From NCBI RefSeq assembly GCF_019733395.1, contig NZ_JAIHOO010000001.1, positions 3,534,501 through 3,598,500 of the forward strand: a stretch of 64,000 nt of DNA, in the 5' to 3' direction. The translations under genes and the position numbers were made by a program. Below the pieces are notes generated by a model. The model was not told where the DNA came from and ran no database searches. It worked only from the letters and a program-made list of their open reading frames with translations. This stretch comes from Lysobacter sp. BMK333-48F3 (GTDB taxonomy: Bacteria; Pseudomonadota; Gammaproteobacteria; Xanthomonadales; Xanthomonadaceae). Shown here piece by piece: positions 44,393 to 53,649 of this stretch. Each line of letters starts with the position of its first letter. Position 1 is the first letter of the stretch.

Positions 44393-44709
44393 CTGTTCCC
44401 TTCTCCCGCTTGCGGGAGAGGGGCAGGGGTGAGGGCAAACCAGCCGCGACGACTTCCCCAAAGCTCACGACACCCAGTCTTCGCCGTTCCCTCTCCCGCC
44501 TGCGGGAGAGGGGCAGCGGTGAGGGCAAACCAGCTGCGACGACTTCCCCAAGATCACGACACCCGGCTTTTGCCGTCCCCTCTCCCGCCTGCGGGAGAGG
44601 GGCAGGGGTGAGGGCAAACCAGCCACGACGACTTCCCCAAGATCACGACGCCCAGTCTTTGCCGACCCCTCTCCCGCTTGCGGGAGAGGGGCAGGGGTGA
44701 GGGCAAGCG
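44393..44709. repeat. Tandem array of four REP-like units, 89-90 bp period
   Basis: The hairpin CTCTCCCGC-N2-GCGGGAGAG recurs at about 44402, 44492, 44581 and 44670, each followed by GGGCAGGGGTGAGGGCAAAC and a conserved CGACGACTTCCCCAA spacer. It fills the 377-bp gap between the P-domain gene and the methyltransferase. It is the same family as the element inside icmF. Confidence 0.92.
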
Positions 44710-45678: not shown

Positions 45679-46236
45679 ATGACCATCTTCCTCACCGACT
45701 TCGCCCGCCCGCGTCTGTTCCCGCGCGAACCGCGCCGCAACACCATCCAGGACATCACCCCGGAGCAGTTCGAGCGCCACCTCAACGACACCCCGCCGTT
45801 GATGGTGCTGGACGGCTACGCCCCGTTCTGCAAACTGCATGTGCACCGCAACTGGACCAGCACCCGCTGCCTGGCGGTGCCGATCACCGACGCCAACCGC
45901 CACCTGCTGCGCAGCGGCTACGACGCCCGCACCAAGGACGAACTGCCGGTGCTGGTGCGCTGGTTCGAAGACCTCGACCCGCCGGTGGCCGAATACCTGA
46001 TCGTCATCCTCTACAGCCGCGAACAACTGGCCAAGGAAGGCACCGCCATCGATGCCGACTGGGGCGTGGTCGGCTGCATGTACACCGCCGAGCCGCTCGA
46101 GACCCCGATGGCCCCGATCACCATGATGCGCAACGCCCTGGGCGTGGAAGAGGGTGGCTCCGGCGTGGCGCTGGACCGCGAGGCCTACCGGCGCAGCGTC
46201 GAGTTCTGGAGCGCGCACGCCAACTGGCGCGGCTGA
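45679..46236 (+). CDS. DUF3228 family protein
   Basis: 185-aa soluble protein. Recognised by the whole-length pattern (LDGYAPFCKLHVHRNWTSTR, EYLIVILYSREQLAKEG, PMAPITMMRNALGVEEGGSG). Function unknown. Transcribed in the same direction as its neighbours, 90 bp behind the methyltransferase. Confidence 0.82.
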   Translation: MTIFLTDFARPRLFPREPRRNTIQDITPEQFERHLNDTPPLMVLDGYAPFCKLHVHRNWTSTRCLAVPITDANRHLLRSGYDARTKDELPVLVRWFEDLDPPVAEYLIVILYSREQLAKEGTAIDADWGVVGCMYTAEPLETPMAPITMMRNALGVEEGGSGVALDREAYRRSVEFWSAHANWRG

Positions 46237-46321
46237 AGCCAGAAACCGCGCACGGTTCGCATTGCAACGTCGCCGGATTCGTCGTACACCGGGCAGCGGT
46301 CGTCTTCGAAGGAAGCCCAGC

Positions 46322-46714
46322 ATGGACCGAACCACCGCCGGTTGCCTGTGCGGCAACGTCCGCGTCGTCGCCACCGGCCGGCCCTATCGGGTCGGCCTGT
46401 GCCACTGCCTCGACTGCCGCAAACACCACGGCGCCCTGTTCCACGGCTCGGCGATCTTCCCCGCCGACGCGGTCAGCGTCGAAGGCGAAACCCGCCACTA
46501 CCGCAACCGCCACTTCTGCCCGAACTGCGGCTCGCCGGTATTCGGCCGCAGCGGCGACGAAGTGGAATTGAATCTGGGCGCCCTCGACGCGCCCGACCAA
46601 TTCCAGCCCACCTACGAACTGTGGACCGTCCGCCGCGAATCCTGGCTGCCGCCGTTTCCGCTGGCGCATAGCTACGAGCGCAATCGCGAAGGCGGGGGGC
46701 GTTACGAAAACTAG
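46322..46714 (+). CDS. GFA/CENP-V-type zinc protein
   Basis: 130 aa. Cys8, Cys10, Cys27, Cys29, Cys32, Cys66 and Cys69 form the two zinc sites of the glutathione-dependent formaldehyde-activating (GFA) fold (CLCGNV, CHCLDC, CPNCG). Such proteins are generally annotated as GFA family; activity toward formaldehyde is doubtful for most. Start ATG 46322 gives the standard opening. Confidence 0.88.
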   Translation: MDRTTAGCLCGNVRVVATGRPYRVGLCHCLDCRKHHGALFHGSAIFPADAVSVEGETRHYRNRHFCPNCGSPVFGRSGDEVELNLGALDAPDQFQPTYELWTVRRESWLPPFPLAHSYERNREGGGRYEN

Positions 46715-46783
46715 GCCAAACAAGCTAATTGGCATATTCGTCCACGCATCGCGAACGTCGAAACACTGCCTGACTCGGTACGA

Positions 46784-46810
46784 CCGCAACCCACGGTTGC
46801 GGGTTTCGTT
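46784..46810 (+). terminator. Intrinsic terminator after the GFA-family gene
   Basis: CCGCAACC / GGTTGCGG with a 3-base loop followed by GTTTCGTT, 70 bp behind the stop at 46714. Confidence 0.65.
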
Positions 46811-46928
46811 CATTCAACCCGATCGATCGAACAATTTGTGCCGAAACCGCCGCGCAAGGCTTGCAAGCCGGCCCCGGGATAGAGGACTTTTATCCGGCCC
46901 CAACGCCCACTCAGGAAGAGGACGCCGC

Positions 46929-47285
46929 ATGTGGATATTCAAGACCAAGCTGCCGCCCCCGGAAGTCCCGCTCAGGTTGCGCGAATTGCTCAAGGACTAC
47001 CCAGGGCATGTCGAAAACTTACAAACAGTCCTGAATGAATTCGCAGAGCCGACGCCCCGAGTGCAGCCATTGGACGAGGCCATCTGGGCACTTCAGAACC
47101 GGCTCGACTGCTTCCTTCAAGAGGCCGTTCGACAGCTTGAAGCCGCGCAGGCCGACGGAAATCCCTTGTCGCTCGACGCGGCCGAACGCGCAAGATCGAC
47201 GATGGGCCGCGCGCTCTTGAGCTTCGACAGCGATCCTGACGGGCTTGGGCGTTACTTCAAGCGGCACAAGAAGGCATTCGAATGA
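46929..47285 (+). CDS. Small upstream partner of the zeta-type kinase, candidate antitoxin
   Basis: 118 aa, all-helical in appearance (LRLRELLKDYPGHVENLQTV, EAIWALQNRLDCFLQEAVRQ), ending in a basic tail RYFKRHKKAFE. No DNA-binding motif recognised. It overlaps the zeta-toxin-type gene by ATGA and has GGAAGAGG before its start. By position and size it is the likely antitoxin; that role is inferred from gene order, not from a known family. Confidence 0.6.
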   Translation: MWIFKTKLPPPEVPLRLRELLKDYPGHVENLQTVLNEFAEPTPRVQPLDEAIWALQNRLDCFLQEAVRQLEAAQADGNPLSLDAAERARSTMGRALLSFDSDPDGLGRYFKRHKKAFE

Positions 47286-48094
47286 CCTCCCAAGAGCGCG
47301 TGTTGGACATAGGGGGCGGCGAGATGATTTTCTGGGATCGGATCGTTCCGGATAGCGGCATGGAGCAGGCCGCATCCCACTCCCAGCCCAAGGCGATCTT
47401 CTTGGTGGGCCAGCCGGGCGCAGGGAAAAGCGCCCTGATAGCCATGGCGAAAGCAGACCTGGGCAATGATCTGATCATGATCGACCCGGACAGGCTCCGC
47501 AGCTATTGGCCGGGTGTGCGTGAACTGCGCAACGCGAGCCCATACGCCTGGCGTCTCGATACCGACCATGATGTCGGCCTCTGGGCCGCCGCCTTGCAAG
47601 AGGTGGCGGTTCGAGACCGTAAAAACATCATCATCGATACCATGTTGAGCGACGCGGAAGCCCTGCTCGACCAGATACGGTTACTGCAGGTCGAGAGCTA
47701 TGAAGTTCAAGTCCGAGTCGTGGCCGTGCATAGATTGGAGAGCGAACTCGCCGTCGATGCGCGCTTCCTGAGTGGCTTCCTCCGGGACGGTCACGGTCTT
47801 TATCACCAGGAAACCTTTCGTAAGCAGTGCTACGAGAACATGCCCAGCTACTTGAACCGCGTGCGCGGTCAAGCAGAAATCCCGATCCGCATCTTCAATT
47901 GCGATGGTCTGGAGATCTATGACGGCCGCATCAACCCAGCGCCGCCCGGAGCGGCGCTCGAGCAAGCCCGCGACGCCCGGCTTGCCGATCCAAAAGTCAC
48001 CAAGGCAGTGCATAAGGGGCTGAAAAAGCAATCGTCGCTGCATCGCGACCTTCCCGAGTTACTCGCGCGCATGACCGAGCCGCCGATGCCATGA
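47282..48094 (+). CDS. Zeta-toxin family P-loop kinase
   Basis: 270 aa. Walker A GQPGAGKS at residues 43-50, followed by IMIDPDRLRSYWPG, the zeta-toxin segment carrying the catalytic acid, and IIIDTMLSD. Members phosphorylate UDP-N-acetylglucosamine (block of cell-wall synthesis) or related substrates. The key motifs look intact. N-terminal 35 residues and C-terminal basic tail (KVTKAVHKGLKKQSSLHRDL) are outside the kinase core. Coupled to the 118-aa gene. Codon use is still GC-rich but weaker than in the flanking core genes. Confidence 0.82.
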   Translation: MTSQERVLDIGGGEMIFWDRIVPDSGMEQAASHSQPKAIFLVGQPGAGKSALIAMAKADLGNDLIMIDPDRLRSYWPGVRELRNASPYAWRLDTDHDVGLWAAALQEVAVRDRKNIIIDTMLSDAEALLDQIRLLQVESYEVQVRVVAVHRLESELAVDARFLSGFLRDGHGLYHQETFRKQCYENMPSYLNRVRGQAEIPIRIFNCDGLEIYDGRINPAPPGAALEQARDARLADPKVTKAVHKGLKKQSSLHRDLPELLARMTEPPMP

Positions 48095-48507
48095 GGTGGG
48101 AGTTCTGATGCCGGACTGATTCCTTCCGAGGTGAGACTTGGCAAATTGTTTGTACACCTTGACCCTGTCGAAAAGCTCGTGGCTTCGGTCGTGAGGATGC
48201 AATGAGCTAGCCAAAAGCAGTCTCGCGTGTCCAGGGGCGCGGGCTTTCTAGTAATGTTTAATTATGGGGCGATGCTTCGAATCGAGGACGTCAAGATTTC
48301 CTCGCCCCTCGTGCGAATGGCCGGAGGGTCTTGTTTTCTTCGTTCGTAAAAGCGGCGCTGATGCGTTCGGCTTGGCAGATTAGTTATGCGCGGGATGCAG
48401 GTTGATGGCGCTTGCTGAATTTCTCGCGCGCGCAGGCGCGCGCATATAGTTGATTCTTTGGGTGTCGGTCACATTGTTATTTAATGTAACGCCAACAGGG
48501 GGCGAAG
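48095..48507. other. AT-richer intergenic leader of the dGTPase-nucleotidyltransferase operon
   Basis: 413 bp in which base composition falls sharply from about 48160 on. TTGATT (48450-48455) and TGTTAT (48475-48480) could be a weak promoter (19-bp spacing), 28 bases before ATG 48508. A short CG-alternating near-palindrome lies at about 48425-48444. No gene seen. Confidence 0.4.
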
Positions 48508-50046
48508 ATGGCTAAGAGGGGTGTGAAGAAGGGCGTTAAAGCCTTGAATAAGACTGGAACTAAAAAGCAAAAAATTGTTGGTCCGAAGTTTAGCAGTGGC
48601 GACGTGGGGGCGCAGCCACTTGACTGGATGAAGTTGCTCTCGTTGTCGCGTATGCCGGGGCAGGATCGCAAAAAGCTTATTTATGGGACAATCAATGATC
48701 ATCGTACAGAACACGAGCGTGATTTTGATAGAGTTGTTTTTTGTACTCCTGTTCGGCGCCTAAAAGATAAAACGCAAGTGTTTCCGTTGGACATGCACGA
48801 TGGAGTAAGAACTCGCCTTACTCATTCAATGGAGGTCTCAAACTTAGCGCGATCTATGGGGACTGCCGTAGCGGCAAATATCGAGGCGCTCGCGTCCATT
48901 CCTGGCGCGCAGAGAAATGTGCCCGCCTTGCTGGCGGCTATCGCACTGACTCATGATTTGGGAAATCCTCCCTTTGGTCATCAGGGGGAGGTCGCAATTC
49001 GCAGTTGGGTTGAAAGTAACGAAGCAGAAATCAAGAAGGAGGCTAAGAGTGAGTTCAATAGAGATTTTCTCAAGGACTTCCTTCTCTTTGAAGGCAACGC
49101 GCAAGGGTTTCGTCTGCTGACTAGGCTGCAGCATCAAGACCATAAAAGTGGGCTAAGGCTTACTGCATCAACACTTCGGGCATTTATGAAGTACCCATGG
49201 TTATCAGGTGCGGTTAATTCTGATGGAGGTCCAAAGAAATTTGGTGTGTTTCGGTCCGAAAAGACTATTTTTGAATGGGCTAGTGCTGAAACGGGGCTAG
49301 AGGTTGGGGTTAGGCATCCTTTGAGTTATCTAATGGAAGTCTGTGATGATATTGCTTACTCGGTTTTAGATATTGAGGATGCGGTAAAAAAAGAGCTGGT
49401 TAGCGTTGCCGAGCTGGCTTCATTTATTGGTAATGATGAGCGCTTCAAAAACGATGTTCGTGTTGAGCACCTTTTGCAGCAATATAATGATGATCGTGAT
49501 TGGCTCAATAGCCTCCGCATGCCGCGCGAAGACCGTGTAAAAGTTGCTCTTTCTAGCAAGGAGATCAGAGATTCTCAAGTTGATATTATACGCAGCTATG
49601 CGATTGGGCTGATGGTCTCAGATGCGATTGATCGATTTATGGCGCTCGAGACAACTAATGCTTTCGGTACTTTAAAGAAGGGGATTGCTGAGGATTTCAG
49701 GTCTTCCCGGCTTGTGGATGCTTTCAAATGTTTCGCTGTGTTGCGCGTCTATAATCACCCCTCCGTTCTTAAGGCGGAGCTGCAAGGGCATAACATCATT
49801 CCTGAACTGATGACTGTTTTTTGGAGGTCGATAGTCAAGCATCGACACGGGACGCAATCAAAAATAGACGAATATGTTATGTCACTAATGTCGCCAAACT
49901 ATGTTCGTGTATACAGGCAGTCTGAGGATCTAGGCCTGCCTTGTTGGTATCGGCAGGTACAATTGGTATGTGATCAGGTTTGTGGAATGACAGATTCCTA
50001 TGCGATAAGAGTGCATTGCGATCTTCGAGGGTTAGGGGCTCTATGA
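48508..50046 (+). CDS. dGTPase-like HD-domain dNTP triphosphohydrolase
   Basis: 512 aa. Metal ligands of the HD superfamily are all present: His106 (RTRLTHSMEV), His149-Asp150 (LTHDLGNPPFGHQGE) and Asp280/281 (CDDIAYSVLDIEDA). FEGNAQGFR at 194-202 is the dGTPase signature, so hydrolysis of dGTP or another dNTP to nucleoside and triphosphate is expected. The basic N-terminal tail (KRGVKKGVKALNKTGTKKQK) may bind nucleic acid. The gene is distinctly AT-richer with different codon use from its neighbours, so probably recently acquired. It overlaps the nucleotidyltransferase gene by ATGA. dGTPases are known to protect against phage by dNTP depletion; a defence role here is inferred. Confidence 0.88.
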   Translation: MAKRGVKKGVKALNKTGTKKQKIVGPKFSSGDVGAQPLDWMKLLSLSRMPGQDRKKLIYGTINDHRTEHERDFDRVVFCTPVRRLKDKTQVFPLDMHDGVRTRLTHSMEVSNLARSMGTAVAANIEALASIPGAQRNVPALLAAIALTHDLGNPPFGHQGEVAIRSWVESNEAEIKKEAKSEFNRDFLKDFLLFEGNAQGFRLLTRLQHQDHKSGLRLTASTLRAFMKYPWLSGAVNSDGGPKKFGVFRSEKTIFEWASAETGLEVGVRHPLSYLMEVCDDIAYSVLDIEDAVKKELVSVAELASFIGNDERFKNDVRVEHLLQQYNDDRDWLNSLRMPREDRVKVALSSKEIRDSQVDIIRSYAIGLMVSDAIDRFMALETTNAFGTLKKGIAEDFRSSRLVDAFKCFAVLRVYNHPSVLKAELQGHNIIPELMTVFWRSIVKHRHGTQSKIDEYVMSLMSPNYVRVYRQSEDLGLPCWYRQVQLVCDQVCGMTDSYAIRVHCDLRGLGAL

Positions 50047-50774
50047 GCTCAGTGTCTATTCAGGTATCTCAGAAGTTGCGGGGGTTTGTTCGTGCACTTA
50101 AAAAATATGACGAACTAAGTGCGGTAATTGATGTTTGGAACGAAGTTGGGGAGGCTTATCTTTTTGGCGGAGCTCCTCGGGATGTTGCTTTCGGTGCCCG
50201 GAAGTCGATTAATGATCTCGATATTTTTGTATCGGGCCCCGTGCGAATGGAGTCGATCAATGATCGGGTGTCGTTGTTAAAGAAGACAAATTTCGGCGGT
50301 TATCGATTTGTTGTTGGTCAATTCGACGTTGATGTTTGGGAGTTGGATAAAAGCTATGCATTTCGCTTTGATGCTTCCTCATATATAAACGCGCGAAATT
50401 TGCTTGATTCAGTCTGCTTTTCGACAGATGGCGTGGCCGTTTCGTTGAAAACTGGTCGGAGCATCGTAACGCCCGAGTTTACTAGCAGTTTGGCCGATCG
50501 GAGATTGGATTTTGTGGTTCCGCCTGCGAAATTGGAAGCGGTTATTGGGGCGAGAATTGCCCGCCTTGCGTTGAAGCTCGAGTTGGAGCTCACTCCCGCT
50601 GTCGCTAGCTATTTCGTTGAATGCTTAGAAATCTTCGGAATTTCAGCATTAATCGATGCTGAAACTCGGTGGGGGAGTAAGCGTATTCTTAATGAAATAT
50701 CGATGGAGCAGATAAAGCTTGATATTCGAGAGGCTATAAGGAGGGCTCGTATTTGCTTGCGCAATGAATATTGA
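50043..50774 (+). CDS. Class-II nucleotidyltransferase (poly(A) polymerase/CCA-enzyme head-like)
   Basis: 243 aa. FGGAPRDVAFGARKSINDLD (residues 41-60) is the GG-x-x-RD-x-x-x-G ... DxD head motif of the poly(A) polymerase/CCA-adding class, with catalytic Asp58 and Asp60; FDVDVWE (94-100) supplies the third carboxylate. It lacks the tRNA-binding tail of a true CCA enzyme and is little more than half its length, so it is not a housekeeping cca gene. The C-terminal 70 residues are helical. Translationally coupled to the dGTPase and sharing its low GC. Substrate unknown: it could tag RNA or protein, or make a nucleotide signal. Confidence 0.75.
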   Translation: MSSVSIQVSQKLRGFVRALKKYDELSAVIDVWNEVGEAYLFGGAPRDVAFGARKSINDLDIFVSGPVRMESINDRVSLLKKTNFGGYRFVVGQFDVDVWELDKSYAFRFDASSYINARNLLDSVCFSTDGVAVSLKTGRSIVTPEFTSSLADRRLDFVVPPAKLEAVIGARIARLALKLELELTPAVASYFVECLEIFGISALIDAETRWGSKRILNEISMEQIKLDIREAIRRARICLRNEY

Positions 50775-51037
50775 TACTTACTGTTTGAAAGGGCGGGTTG
50801 ATTAAATTATTGGGTTCTCGGCGCCGCGTGGAGAGGGCGTTCTTGATGTCGTCCAGCGCTTGGTACGAACGCAAGCACAGCGCTTTGAATGCTTCGCTGA
50901 ATATTTGGGCTAGATAGCGGGGCTATTAGCCTATCCGGGCTGTAGCTCGTTCCGTCGAGGGCAAATGCATTAGTCCGTCGCTGGACGGACAAGCCGAGAC
51001 CCGAGCAGAATCTCAGCTCGGTGGACGGAAGTTCGCA

Positions 51038-51700
51038 ATGCCAAGCCGCACCATCATCGTCGCAGGCGCAACAGGTCTCGTGGGTAGAGAACTTCTGTCC
51101 GGGCTGCTGGGCGACCAGAGCGTAGCCGCCGTGCATAGCCTCGGTCGCAGAATGCTGGCGGCGCAGCATCCCAGACTAACGGGTCACGTCGTCGACTTCG
51201 CTGCACTGCCCTATCTGCCGCGCGCGGACGAGGTGTATCTGGCGCTGGGCATGGCGATCAAGGTCGCCGGCAGCTAGGCAGCGTTTCGTGCCGTCGATTA
51301 CGACGCCAACCTAGCGCCGTCGCGACGGCGGCCTTGGCCGCGGGCGCCAAGCGGGTCGGCCTGGTCAGCGCGATGGGCGCCGATTCCAAGTCGAAGGTCT
51401 TCTATGGCCGGGTGAAGGGCGAACTGGAGGATGCTTTGGCGGCAATGCCGTTCGAGGGCATGGTCTTCGCGCGACCATCGCTGCTGGTCGGGGATCGCAA
51501 GGTGCTTGGGCAACCGACGCGGCAAGGCGAGGTGCTGGGCTCCGCTCGGTAAGGTTGTGGGGTTCCTGATCCCGGCGAACTACAAAGCCATCGACGCGTC
51601 GGGGGTCGCCTCGGCTTTGCTCTCCGGGGTGCCGTCGGCCCAAGGTAGGAAGGTCCTGCTGTCCGGTGCGATGCGGCGCTTGGCGTTTTCGCGGCCCTGA
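51038..51700 (+). pseudogene. Decayed NAD(P)-binding epimerase/oxidoreductase gene
   Basis: Reads as a Rossmann-fold NAD(P)H-binding protein of about 220 aa (IIVAGATGLVGRELLSGLLG; later AALAAGAKRVGLVSAMGADS; FLIPANYKAIDASGVASALL). It has at least three lesions: TAG after KVAGS (about 51275), a one-base insertion around 51313-51320 moving it to another frame, and a compensating one-base loss near 51545 that restores the first frame up to the TGA at 51698-51700. In the intact ancestor it would be a YbjT/HTATIP2-like protein. Certainly non-functional as read. Confidence 0.82.
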
Positions 51701-51807
51701 GTTGCCCTGGATGGAGGGCCAATTCGGCTTCCTTGCCATGGCAATCAAAGTGGTCGCTCGCCTGGAGCGACCCGTTGCGGGGGCTTTAGGTGGACTCGGA
51801 TACGGCC

Positions 51808-53649
51808 TTACTGTCTTGGGCCGCGGCTCGGGTCTTCTTGCGAACGTTGGGCTAGGTTTTGCGCGTGCTGTTGGTCGCGCTCTTGATTGAAGGATTGGTT
51901 CGCACGCAAGGTGTCCTGCATCGGCGGTGCCGGCTCGGATGTGGAGACACCCGCGTGGAATCCTGGTACGACACCCGCGACCCACAGGGTTCCATCTACA
52001 ACCCCGATGTGGCCGATGCGACCAGCATCGGGAATGCCGTTCTGCTTGGCTTGAAGCATCGCTTGCGCCACTTTCTCGTCAGTCACCTGCGCAGGTACGT
52101 TTTGTCGGATCTTGTCGAACATGGCTTGATCCTCAGGCGCTAGCCGTGAGGGTGTCGGTGTGGGGTCGATGCGTGCTGGCGATGAAACCGGGCTGATCGG
52201 GGCAGGGGCCTGCGAGCCGGAGGCTGGTGCTGGGGAAAGGGGGGCTGCATGGGGTGCGCGACTTGCCTCGTAGCGATCGGCAGCCAACTCGGGATCGATC
52301 CGCCTGCCAAGATTGACGTTGGCGGCGAAGTCGCGGGTGGGGCGGTCGAAGACCTGGTCCGCTGTTCGTTGGACGATGGCCAATCCGGCCTGGGTGCTGA
52401 TCGCTGCGAGCGTATGCCAATCTGCGACACCGTTGACCTGCTCAGTCCCATGCCAAAGTTGAAAGGCCTGTACTGCTCGTTGAGTGGCCGAGCCAAAAAC
52501 GCCATCCGCGGTGATCGGCTGTTTGATCCGCTCATTGATTCCGAGCTGGATCAGATTCTCCTGTAACTTTGTGACTTCCGGGCCCTGCTCGCCGACTTTC
52601 AAGCTGCCGTCGACCATCGCGTCGCGTGGTTGGTGAGTTTTGATTACGGAGGTAGGGGCTTGCAAGTACGACGGCAAGCCTTGGTCGTTCGGCTGCATCC
52701 AATCGCTGCGATAGCCGGGCGGTTGAAAGCGCTCGGCGACTTGCTGGAAGTCCGGTGTCGCTGAGAGCGCCGCGGCGTGCGTTCGCAATGTCGTTAGCGT
52801 CGCAATGTCGGCTGTGCCGGTAGCTGGGAGGTTGTTGCGCTCCTGGAAGAGCGAAACAGCTTCTCGTGTGCTCTTTCCATAGTCTCCGTCGGCTTGCAGC
52901 GCTCTACCGTTGGCATCGACCGCGCCGACCAGCTTCAGATTTTCCTGTAACGCTTCTACGGAAAGATTGGCTTCGCCAGGGCGTAGCTCATTCTCGAAAG
53001 GTAGTTGGTAGGGGATGCCTTTGAACCGTTCCTCGATGATCAGCAGTTGGTCGAGTCCGTCGCGATTGAGCGCTATATCGTTGTAATAGTCGTAGCTGCT
53101 CGTCCCGTAGTCGTCCGTCGCGGCCTGCTTTCCCTGGACGACTTTCACGGCCCCGCCATATCCGGCGATATGTCGTGCTTTCAGGAAGCCCGCGATGTGC
53201 TCCTCGGAGTCGCCCTCTACGAGCACTCCCTGCCTCATGGCGGTGCGATAAGCGGCGTCGCTGTTGCGTTTGAACGCTTGATCCTGCAAGTCGGCGGAGG
53301 CCTTGTACTGGTCGAGGCTCAAGCCGTCTTTCCAGTTGGAAGCATCTTCCAGGAAGCGGGTCATGCCTCCCGACTCGGCCCAGGTCCATTCCCTGCGATA
53401 CCCCGACATCGCCGCTCTGACCTTGTCCGCGTCGACGTAGCCCGCATCGGCCAGCCAGGTAGCGCCCGCCTGATACCGTCCGACATAACCCGCACCGTTG
53501 ATGATGCTCAGGTCGCCGCCATTGCTCTCGGTCAAGACGGTTGAAGCCACCAGTCTCCGAGTGGAATAGTCGCTTAGCCCTTCGATATTGCCCTGAGCAT
53601 ACTGATTGGCCGTCAGTACGGCTCGTTCTTGCCTACGCGTCCCTGCCAT
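51808..53649 (-). CDS. T4SS antibacterial effector with peptidoglycan-binding repeats and XVIPCD
   Basis: 613 aa, no signal peptide. N-terminal 200 residues resemble a lysozyme/transglycosylase-type fold (STVLTESNGGDLSIINGAGY, VGRYQAGATWLADAGYVDAD). Two peptidoglycan-binding domains follow (about 238-300 and 352-425; each has DGxxGxxTxxAVxxFQ, e.g. DGDYGKSTREAVSLFQ and DGVFGSATQRAVQAFQ), then a Pro-rich linker. The last 110 residues match the XVIPCD signal (KQNGIPDAGRIGHIGVVDG, PAPPMQDTLRANQSFNQERD, Gln-rich end) that directs proteins to the Xanthomonadaceae bacterial-killing type IV secretion system. It should hydrolyse the wall of competing Gram-negative bacteria. The upstream lipoprotein gene ends 22 bases before it. 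Confidence 0.88.
   Translation of the reverse strand: MAGTRRQERAVLTANQYAQGNIEGLSDYSTRRLVASTVLTESNGGDLSIINGAGYVGRYQAGATWLADAGYVDADKVRAAMSGYRREWTWAESGGMTRFLEDASNWKDGLSLDQYKASADLQDQAFKRNSDAAYRTAMRQGVLVEGDSEEHIAGFLKARHIAGYGGAVKVVQGKQAATDDYGTSSYDYYNDIALNRDGLDQLLIIEERFKGIPYQLPFENELRPGEANLSVEALQENLKLVGAVDANGRALQADGDYGKSTREAVSLFQERNNLPATGTADIATLTTLRTHAAALSATPDFQQVAERFQPPGYRSDWMQPNDQGLPSYLQAPTSVIKTHQPRDAMVDGSLKVGEQGPEVTKLQENLIQLGINERIKQPITADGVFGSATQRAVQAFQLWHGTEQVNGVADWHTLAAISTQAGLAIVQRTADQVFDRPTRDFAANVNLGRRIDPELAADRYEASRAPHAAPLSPAPASGSQAPAPISPVSSPARIDPTPTPSRLAPEDQAMFDKIRQNVPAQVTDEKVAQAMLQAKQNGIPDAGRIGHIGVVDGTLWVAGVVPGFHAGVSTSEPAPPMQDTLRANQSFNQERDQQHAQNLAQRSQEDPSRGPRQ

Follow-up and report, generated by a model that had tools for sequence, protein, structure and literature searches.

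A very probable Clover operon from a distinct branch of the system in Lysobacter sp. BMK333-48F3, with a hint of an altered signal

Clover, posted in July 2025 (Yamaguchi et al. 2025, PMC12265719, cited here from parts of its text), is the closest described relative of the gene pair analyzed in this study. In those parts Clover is a deoxyguanosine triphosphate (dGTP) triphosphohydrolase (dGTPase), CloA, which deoxythymidine triphosphate (dTTP) activates and p3diT holds back; p3diT is a linear dinucleotide of thymidine produced by the nucleotidyltransferase CloB. The systems described come from Salmonella enterica SA20044414 and Escherichia coli H5, CloB is assigned to the Pol-beta superfamily, a "distantly related" Xanthomonas CloB (X. 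oryzae DXO-052) is reported to make p3diT likewise, about 650 CloBs are published, and an earlier prediction of the arrangement is credited to Nicastro et al. 2023. Among the literature matches listed, PMC12265719 was the only one to describe Clover by its title and abstract, no search having been aimed at the branch considered here. The DNA in question is a 64,000-nucleotide stretch of Lysobacter sp. BMK333-48F3 (the window, with positions numbered from its first letter), in which two adjacent genes very probably constitute a Clover anti-phage operon. This operon is an intact, mobile member of a separate Clover branch and carries a hint of an altered signal. An earlier note on this DNA had proposed the pair as a candidate new defence system, a claim that is unsupported because the arrangement had already been posted as Clover.

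What was computed here is the gene content, the homology, the residues for catalysis and ligand binding, the predicted fold of CloB, the recurrence and the swapping of cassettes. The features of the operon are as follows.

48508..50046, + strand: cloA, dGTP triphosphohydrolase effector, 512 residues
48952..48957, + strand: codons of the CloA HD motif, H149-D150 (in Salmonella CloA, H117-D118), from alignment
50043..50046, + strand: overlap of the cloA stop and cloB start, ATGA, from the sequence
50043..50774, + strand: cloB, class-II head-neck nucleotidyltransferase, 243 residues from the ATG at 50043, predicted maker of the inhibitory dinucleotide
50214..50222, + strand: codons of D58-L59-D60, the DxD of the CloB active site (in E. 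coli H5 CloB, D71/D73), from alignments
50331..50333, + strand: codon of D97, the third acid of the CloB active site, invariant in the 40-sequence and 17-row alignments

Inspection of the open reading frames found both genes intact, adjacent and on the same strand. Their combined guanine plus cytosine (GC) content is 46.4%, compared with 67.4% for the window, and the lowest value among 1049 tiles of the same length from the window outside 46000-53000 is 58.6%. The two overlapping AT-rich frames recognized in the earlier note, with their 4-base ATGA, are confirmed, as is its description of the first product as a dGTPase with all HD ligands and the FEGNAQGFR signature. A scan for promoters and terminators returned one promoter-like and five terminator-like sites, within about one standard deviation of shuffled sequences, and a search for direct repeats flanking the cassette gave nothing convincing.

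CloA matches the PADLOC dGTPase model (E 2.3e-77) and NCBIfam TIGR01353 (E 9.9e-91). Its closest solved structures are 9p8t (E 8.3e-91) and 9p8s (E 1.1e-90), both titled "DNTP triphosphohydrolase" with no mention of Clover in the titles. Residues, motifs and numbering of 9p8t agree with those given for Salmonella CloA in the accessible text of PMC12265719 (chain number equals residue plus 2), and judging by numbering and motifs 9p8t is the published Salmonella CloA. One point of detail is that PMC12265719 names Q377 as a dGTP contact while the 9p8t sequence in the alignment shows E at 377. The E. coli H5 operon, which was tested in PMC12265719, lies in NZ_CP010169; its CloA is 40% identical to the window CloA over 488 residues, compared with 29-35% for six unpaired dGTPases. 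For the tested CloAs of Salmonella and E. coli H5 together the identity is 40% over 484-488 residues. The alignment shows that the window CloA retains every one of the six residues for metal binding and catalysis (H106, H149, D150, H158, E161 and D280), including the HD motif and the HE dyad. Ahead of the start of the alignment the window CloA adds to the published proteins a lysine-rich extension of 37 residues, which is absent at one related locus (L037). No second dGTPase of the CloA type was found in the window's own genome.

Searches of Pfam (to E 10) and of NCBIfam and PADLOC (to E 1) returned no domain match for CloB itself. A poly(A)-polymerase head was seen weakly in 11 of the 36 members of an alignment covering both CloB branches, with a best E of 5.7e-4. 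The motif GG..RD...DxD is fully preserved. An alignment of 40 sequences shows no variation at D58, D60 or the third acid D97, and another, with 17 rows from the two branches, shows none at the DxD, the third acid, GG, R, FGG or W. The window and E. coli H5 proteins are homologous (BLASTP: 25% identity over 187 residues, E 1e-15; profile: E 8.6e-16 over 198 columns), and D71 and D73 of the latter are the residues reported as mutated in PMC12265719. A confident predicted model of CloB was compared with solved structures by VIA-align (50 rows). Residues 1-229 of the model align to residues 6-247 of a 425-residue chain, identities to class-II enzymes are 12-17% in the 27 best rows, and none of the 50 rows is a solved CloB structure. 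By this model CloB is the head and neck of class-II CCA-adding enzymes without the transfer RNA (tRNA)-binding body or tail; the chain stops at 243 residues. The assignment in the earlier note of a stand-alone nucleotidyltransferase of the poly(A)-polymerase/CCA head class with intact DxD thus agrees with both the residues and the fold model, the structure prediction suggested there having recovered a putative class-II head-neck fold. Its concern that the gene might be an orphan fragment with substituted catalytic residues in homologues finds no echo in the alignments.

Recurrence of the pair was surveyed by CloB profile searches of three overlapping sets, with 395 genomes from the family, 398 from the phylum and 369 from the class. 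At E 0.001, matches were found in 8, 13 and 11 genomes, respectively. With each genome counted once, a long CloB match was present in nine (the window's own, G198, G031, G151, G222, G510, G503, G1032 and G912), and a CloA-type dGTPase adjoins CloB in every one of them. Partial matches in 20 further genomes lie inside longer frames of 426-1335 residues, and no CloA-type dGTPase was seen near any of these 20 loci within up to about 1.5 kb on each side. The branch of the window has so far been found in one bacterial family, and all four genomes in which it was found (the window's own, G198, G031 and G151) have the CloB partner, none showing cloA as a single gene. The earlier note had made its proposal depend on the pair recurring in unrelated genomes; the pair does recur beyond the genus and the class of the window, and the picture of a recurrent, horizontally moving two-gene unit holds. 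Two loci carry decaying Clover operons: at L036 6021-8054 (G503) cloA is fragmented and cloB truncated, and at L064 (G912) cloA is split over two frames.

Further searches extended this distribution. CloB occurs in 2 of 72,556 plasmid records, both from Phaeobacter piscinae, and a conjugative Phaeobacter plasmid carries the cloA-cloB pair. A DNA search of E. coli with the window pair gave no match, and a search with a related pair retrieved E. coli H5 and seven other records, in total 8 of 5426 E. coli genomes. A search for relatives of CloB alone found 2 of 149 genomes, the window's own included. Compared with genome contigs, the CloB alignment gave 50 pattern stretches, of which two were relatives (genomes G031 and G151); compared with viral contigs it gave 30 such stretches, none of them a relative, and CloB had no match among phage records at E 0.01.

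Phylogenetic trees of both proteins set the window apart in a distinct branch. In the CloA tree the window sequence groups with those of three related loci, L033, L037 and L038 (support 93/97), and in the CloB tree the window branch is separate (support 100/100). The CloA tree also places the paired CloAs on one side of a branch and eight unpaired dGTPases on the other (support 85/93).

The operon lies in a slot whose content is exchanged between related genomes. In G017, a genome of the same genus, the DNA follows that of the window at about 90% identity as far as 48132 and resumes at 50882, which defines the following feature.

48133..50881, no strand: variable slot housing the operon; G017 is colinear on both sides with another pair between

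In G017 the slot holds a pair of DUF6119 and DUF6615 genes (L059 4031-6499, GC 47-48%). Another genome of the genus, G014, has between the same flanking genes a GmrSD_N gene with matches to NsnA (E 7.7e-60) and PD-T4-2_A. These comparisons describe a compact slot where AT-rich gene pairs swap in related genomes.

Contact lists from the accessible text of PMC12265719 were mapped by alignment on nine paired and six unpaired dGTPases. All eight side-chain contacts to dTTP are retained in the window CloA, as are seven of the ten contacts to p3diT (R66, R71, D74, R75, F78, N112 and R362). D74 and N112 are the readers of the second thymine. N112 corresponds to N75, which is present in 9/9 paired and 0/6 unpaired dGTPases, and the N75 and Q127 positions are both Clover-like with the same distribution. 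The remaining three p3diT contacts, T25, N181 and Q311 of the published systems, are replaced in the window CloA by I62, R217 and D359. The position of T25 is variable in the other Clover branch too; the codons of the other two replacements are as follows.

49156..49158, + strand: codon of CloA R217, replacing N181 (p3diT triphosphate contact); Arg in 3/9 and Asn in 6/9 paired CloAs
49582..49584, + strand: codon of CloA D359, replacing Q311 (first-thymine reader of p3diT); Asp in 3/9 and Gln in 6/9 paired CloAs

The window, L033 and L037 share the combination of D359 and R217, which is absent from the six other paired CloAs and from L062 and L064.

By analogy with the published homologues, the window operon would work as a balance between two nucleotide signals. 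The CloA dGTPase would be inactive in healthy cells. On infection, phage enzymes would raise dTTP, which may bind between CloA subunits and complete the active site, and the activated CloA would destroy dGTP and starve phage DNA synthesis. From two molecules of dTTP CloB would make a linear dinucleotide, either p3diT or a closely related compound, which would occupy the same subunit interface, raise the dTTP threshold and protect the uninfected cell. The earlier note had suggested a regulatory or signal-producing role for the nucleotidyltransferase, in agreement with the role that PMC12265719 describes, in the parts cited here, for its homologues.

The window locus shares with the Salmonella and E. 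coli H5 systems the adjacent dGTPase and nucleotidyltransferase genes, the CloA identity, the DxD and third acid of CloB, and the dTTP contacts, and differs from them in the separate branches of both proteins. Several observations weigh against its assignment to Clover. Every biochemical step for the window operon is inferred from published homologues, and the window CloB is only 25% identical to a tested CloB. The dTTP site is weakly diagnostic because an unpaired Listeria dGTPase keeps 7/8 of the contacts, and three p3diT contacts are replaced. The grouping of the paired CloAs has moderate support (85/93) in a tree with long branches, notably among the unpaired dGTPases. Apart from CloA, nothing in the neighbourhood of the operon in the window has a clear PADLOC match, so that the defence setting of the window rests on its relatives and on the slot. 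At five related loci, clear PADLOC matches were obtained for three of ten scanned neighbours (SduA at L033, PDC-S52 at L037 and PDC-M30A on the Phaeobacter plasmid), while two were weak and five gave none.

Two other explanations of the pair were considered. CloB could modify RNA or protein, as in tRNA tailing or a MenT-like toxin, with the dGTPase regulated in this way or a mere neighbour. The predicted model does give CloB a head and neck in common with class-II CCA-adding enzymes and poly(A) polymerases, but CloB differs from these by the missing body and tail that would bind tRNA, by its low identity and by its dGTPase operon partner; homologous tested CloBs make p3diT according to the cited parts of PMC12265719, and the two genes occur together in 9/9 genomes. 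We consider this explanation very unlikely. It is also conceivable that the dGTPase is a housekeeping Dgt beside an unrelated gene. CloA does share the HD fold family and the catalytic residues with housekeeping Dgt and with stand-alone anti-phage dGTPases of the Shewanella SpdGTPase type (the alignment covers six unpaired dGTPases other than SpdGTPase), and two of the seven family genomes with a CloA-type dGTPase, G176 and G315, have no CloB match. However, a dGTPase of this type is present in only those 7 of the 395 genomes of the family, and the other five have CloB beside it; the window CloA is AT-rich, lies in a swap slot, groups with the paired CloAs in the tree, and differs from the stand-alone enzymes by its nucleotidyltransferase partner and its Clover-like N75 and Q127 positions. 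A housekeeping identity is scarcely credible and was rejected on the patchy occurrence and the pairing.

Within the Clover assignment, the inhibitory signal may differ from p3diT because of the Q311 to D359 and N181 to R217 changes. On chemical grounds, an aspartate at the position of the first-thymine reader would favour a hydrogen-bond-donor base, for example guanine. One unlikely but specific possibility is that Clover of the window branch keeps the architecture and uses another inhibitory dinucleotide, made by its CloB, with a first base other than thymine read by the aspartate and a triphosphate held by the extra arginine. The joint occurrence of both changes in the window, L033 and L037 only and the separate branch of CloB are in its favour, while the seven retained p3diT contacts, the p3diT reported in PMC12265719 (in the parts cited) for the "distantly related" Xanthomonas CloB, and the fact that the change is seen in three sequences only weigh against it. 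We consider such a different signal improbable. If it is true, CloA would weigh dTTP against a signal made from a different deoxynucleotide, perhaps its substrate dGTP, in which case the brake would report directly on the protected pool, and Clover would comprise several nucleotide balances, each set to a pool of its own. The comparison flags two CloA residues that may set the brake nucleotide and ties a separate Clover branch to the tested one, with a predicted class-II head-neck fold for its CloB.

The neighbours named in the earlier note, a zeta-toxin pair and a decayed gene, were both found at the flanks of the slot, the toxin as follows.

47282..48094: zeta toxin (Pfam E 3.5e-35), after an open reading frame of 118 residues without matches

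Together these two frames (window 46929-48094) are a candidate toxin-antitoxin pair of the flank, which is kept in G017; the toxin and its G017 copy are identical at 248 of 271 codon positions, stop included. The pair was rejected as a component of the operon and placed outside the unit, since G017 retains it with the other cassette in the slot. The decayed gene (window about 51038-51700) has an open homologue of 214 residues in G017 (L059 7298-7942), with weak NAD(P)-binding matches below the Pfam cut-offs. Short repeated segments at window 44398-44708 match one another and recur at the same place in L059, probably as a dispersed intergenic repeat.

Other observations concern related genomes. 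The DUF6119 and DUF6615 pair of G017 may be an undescribed defence pair, as it has no PADLOC match, and in the insert of G014 (L060 3896-5595) the GmrSD_N gene is followed by a gene for 213 residues without matches. The nearest relative of the operon, at L033, adjoins SduA of Shedu (E 7.7e-163), and SduA, SEC-C, HEPN and trypsin-like proteins are encoded on the same strand (L033 3479-7330) in what is likely a defence island. Finally, the Listeria record named "plasmid 3" (L027, NZ_LR134400.1) carries rpsL, rpsG and fusA beside a dGTPase gene and, given these genes, is probably a piece of chromosome.
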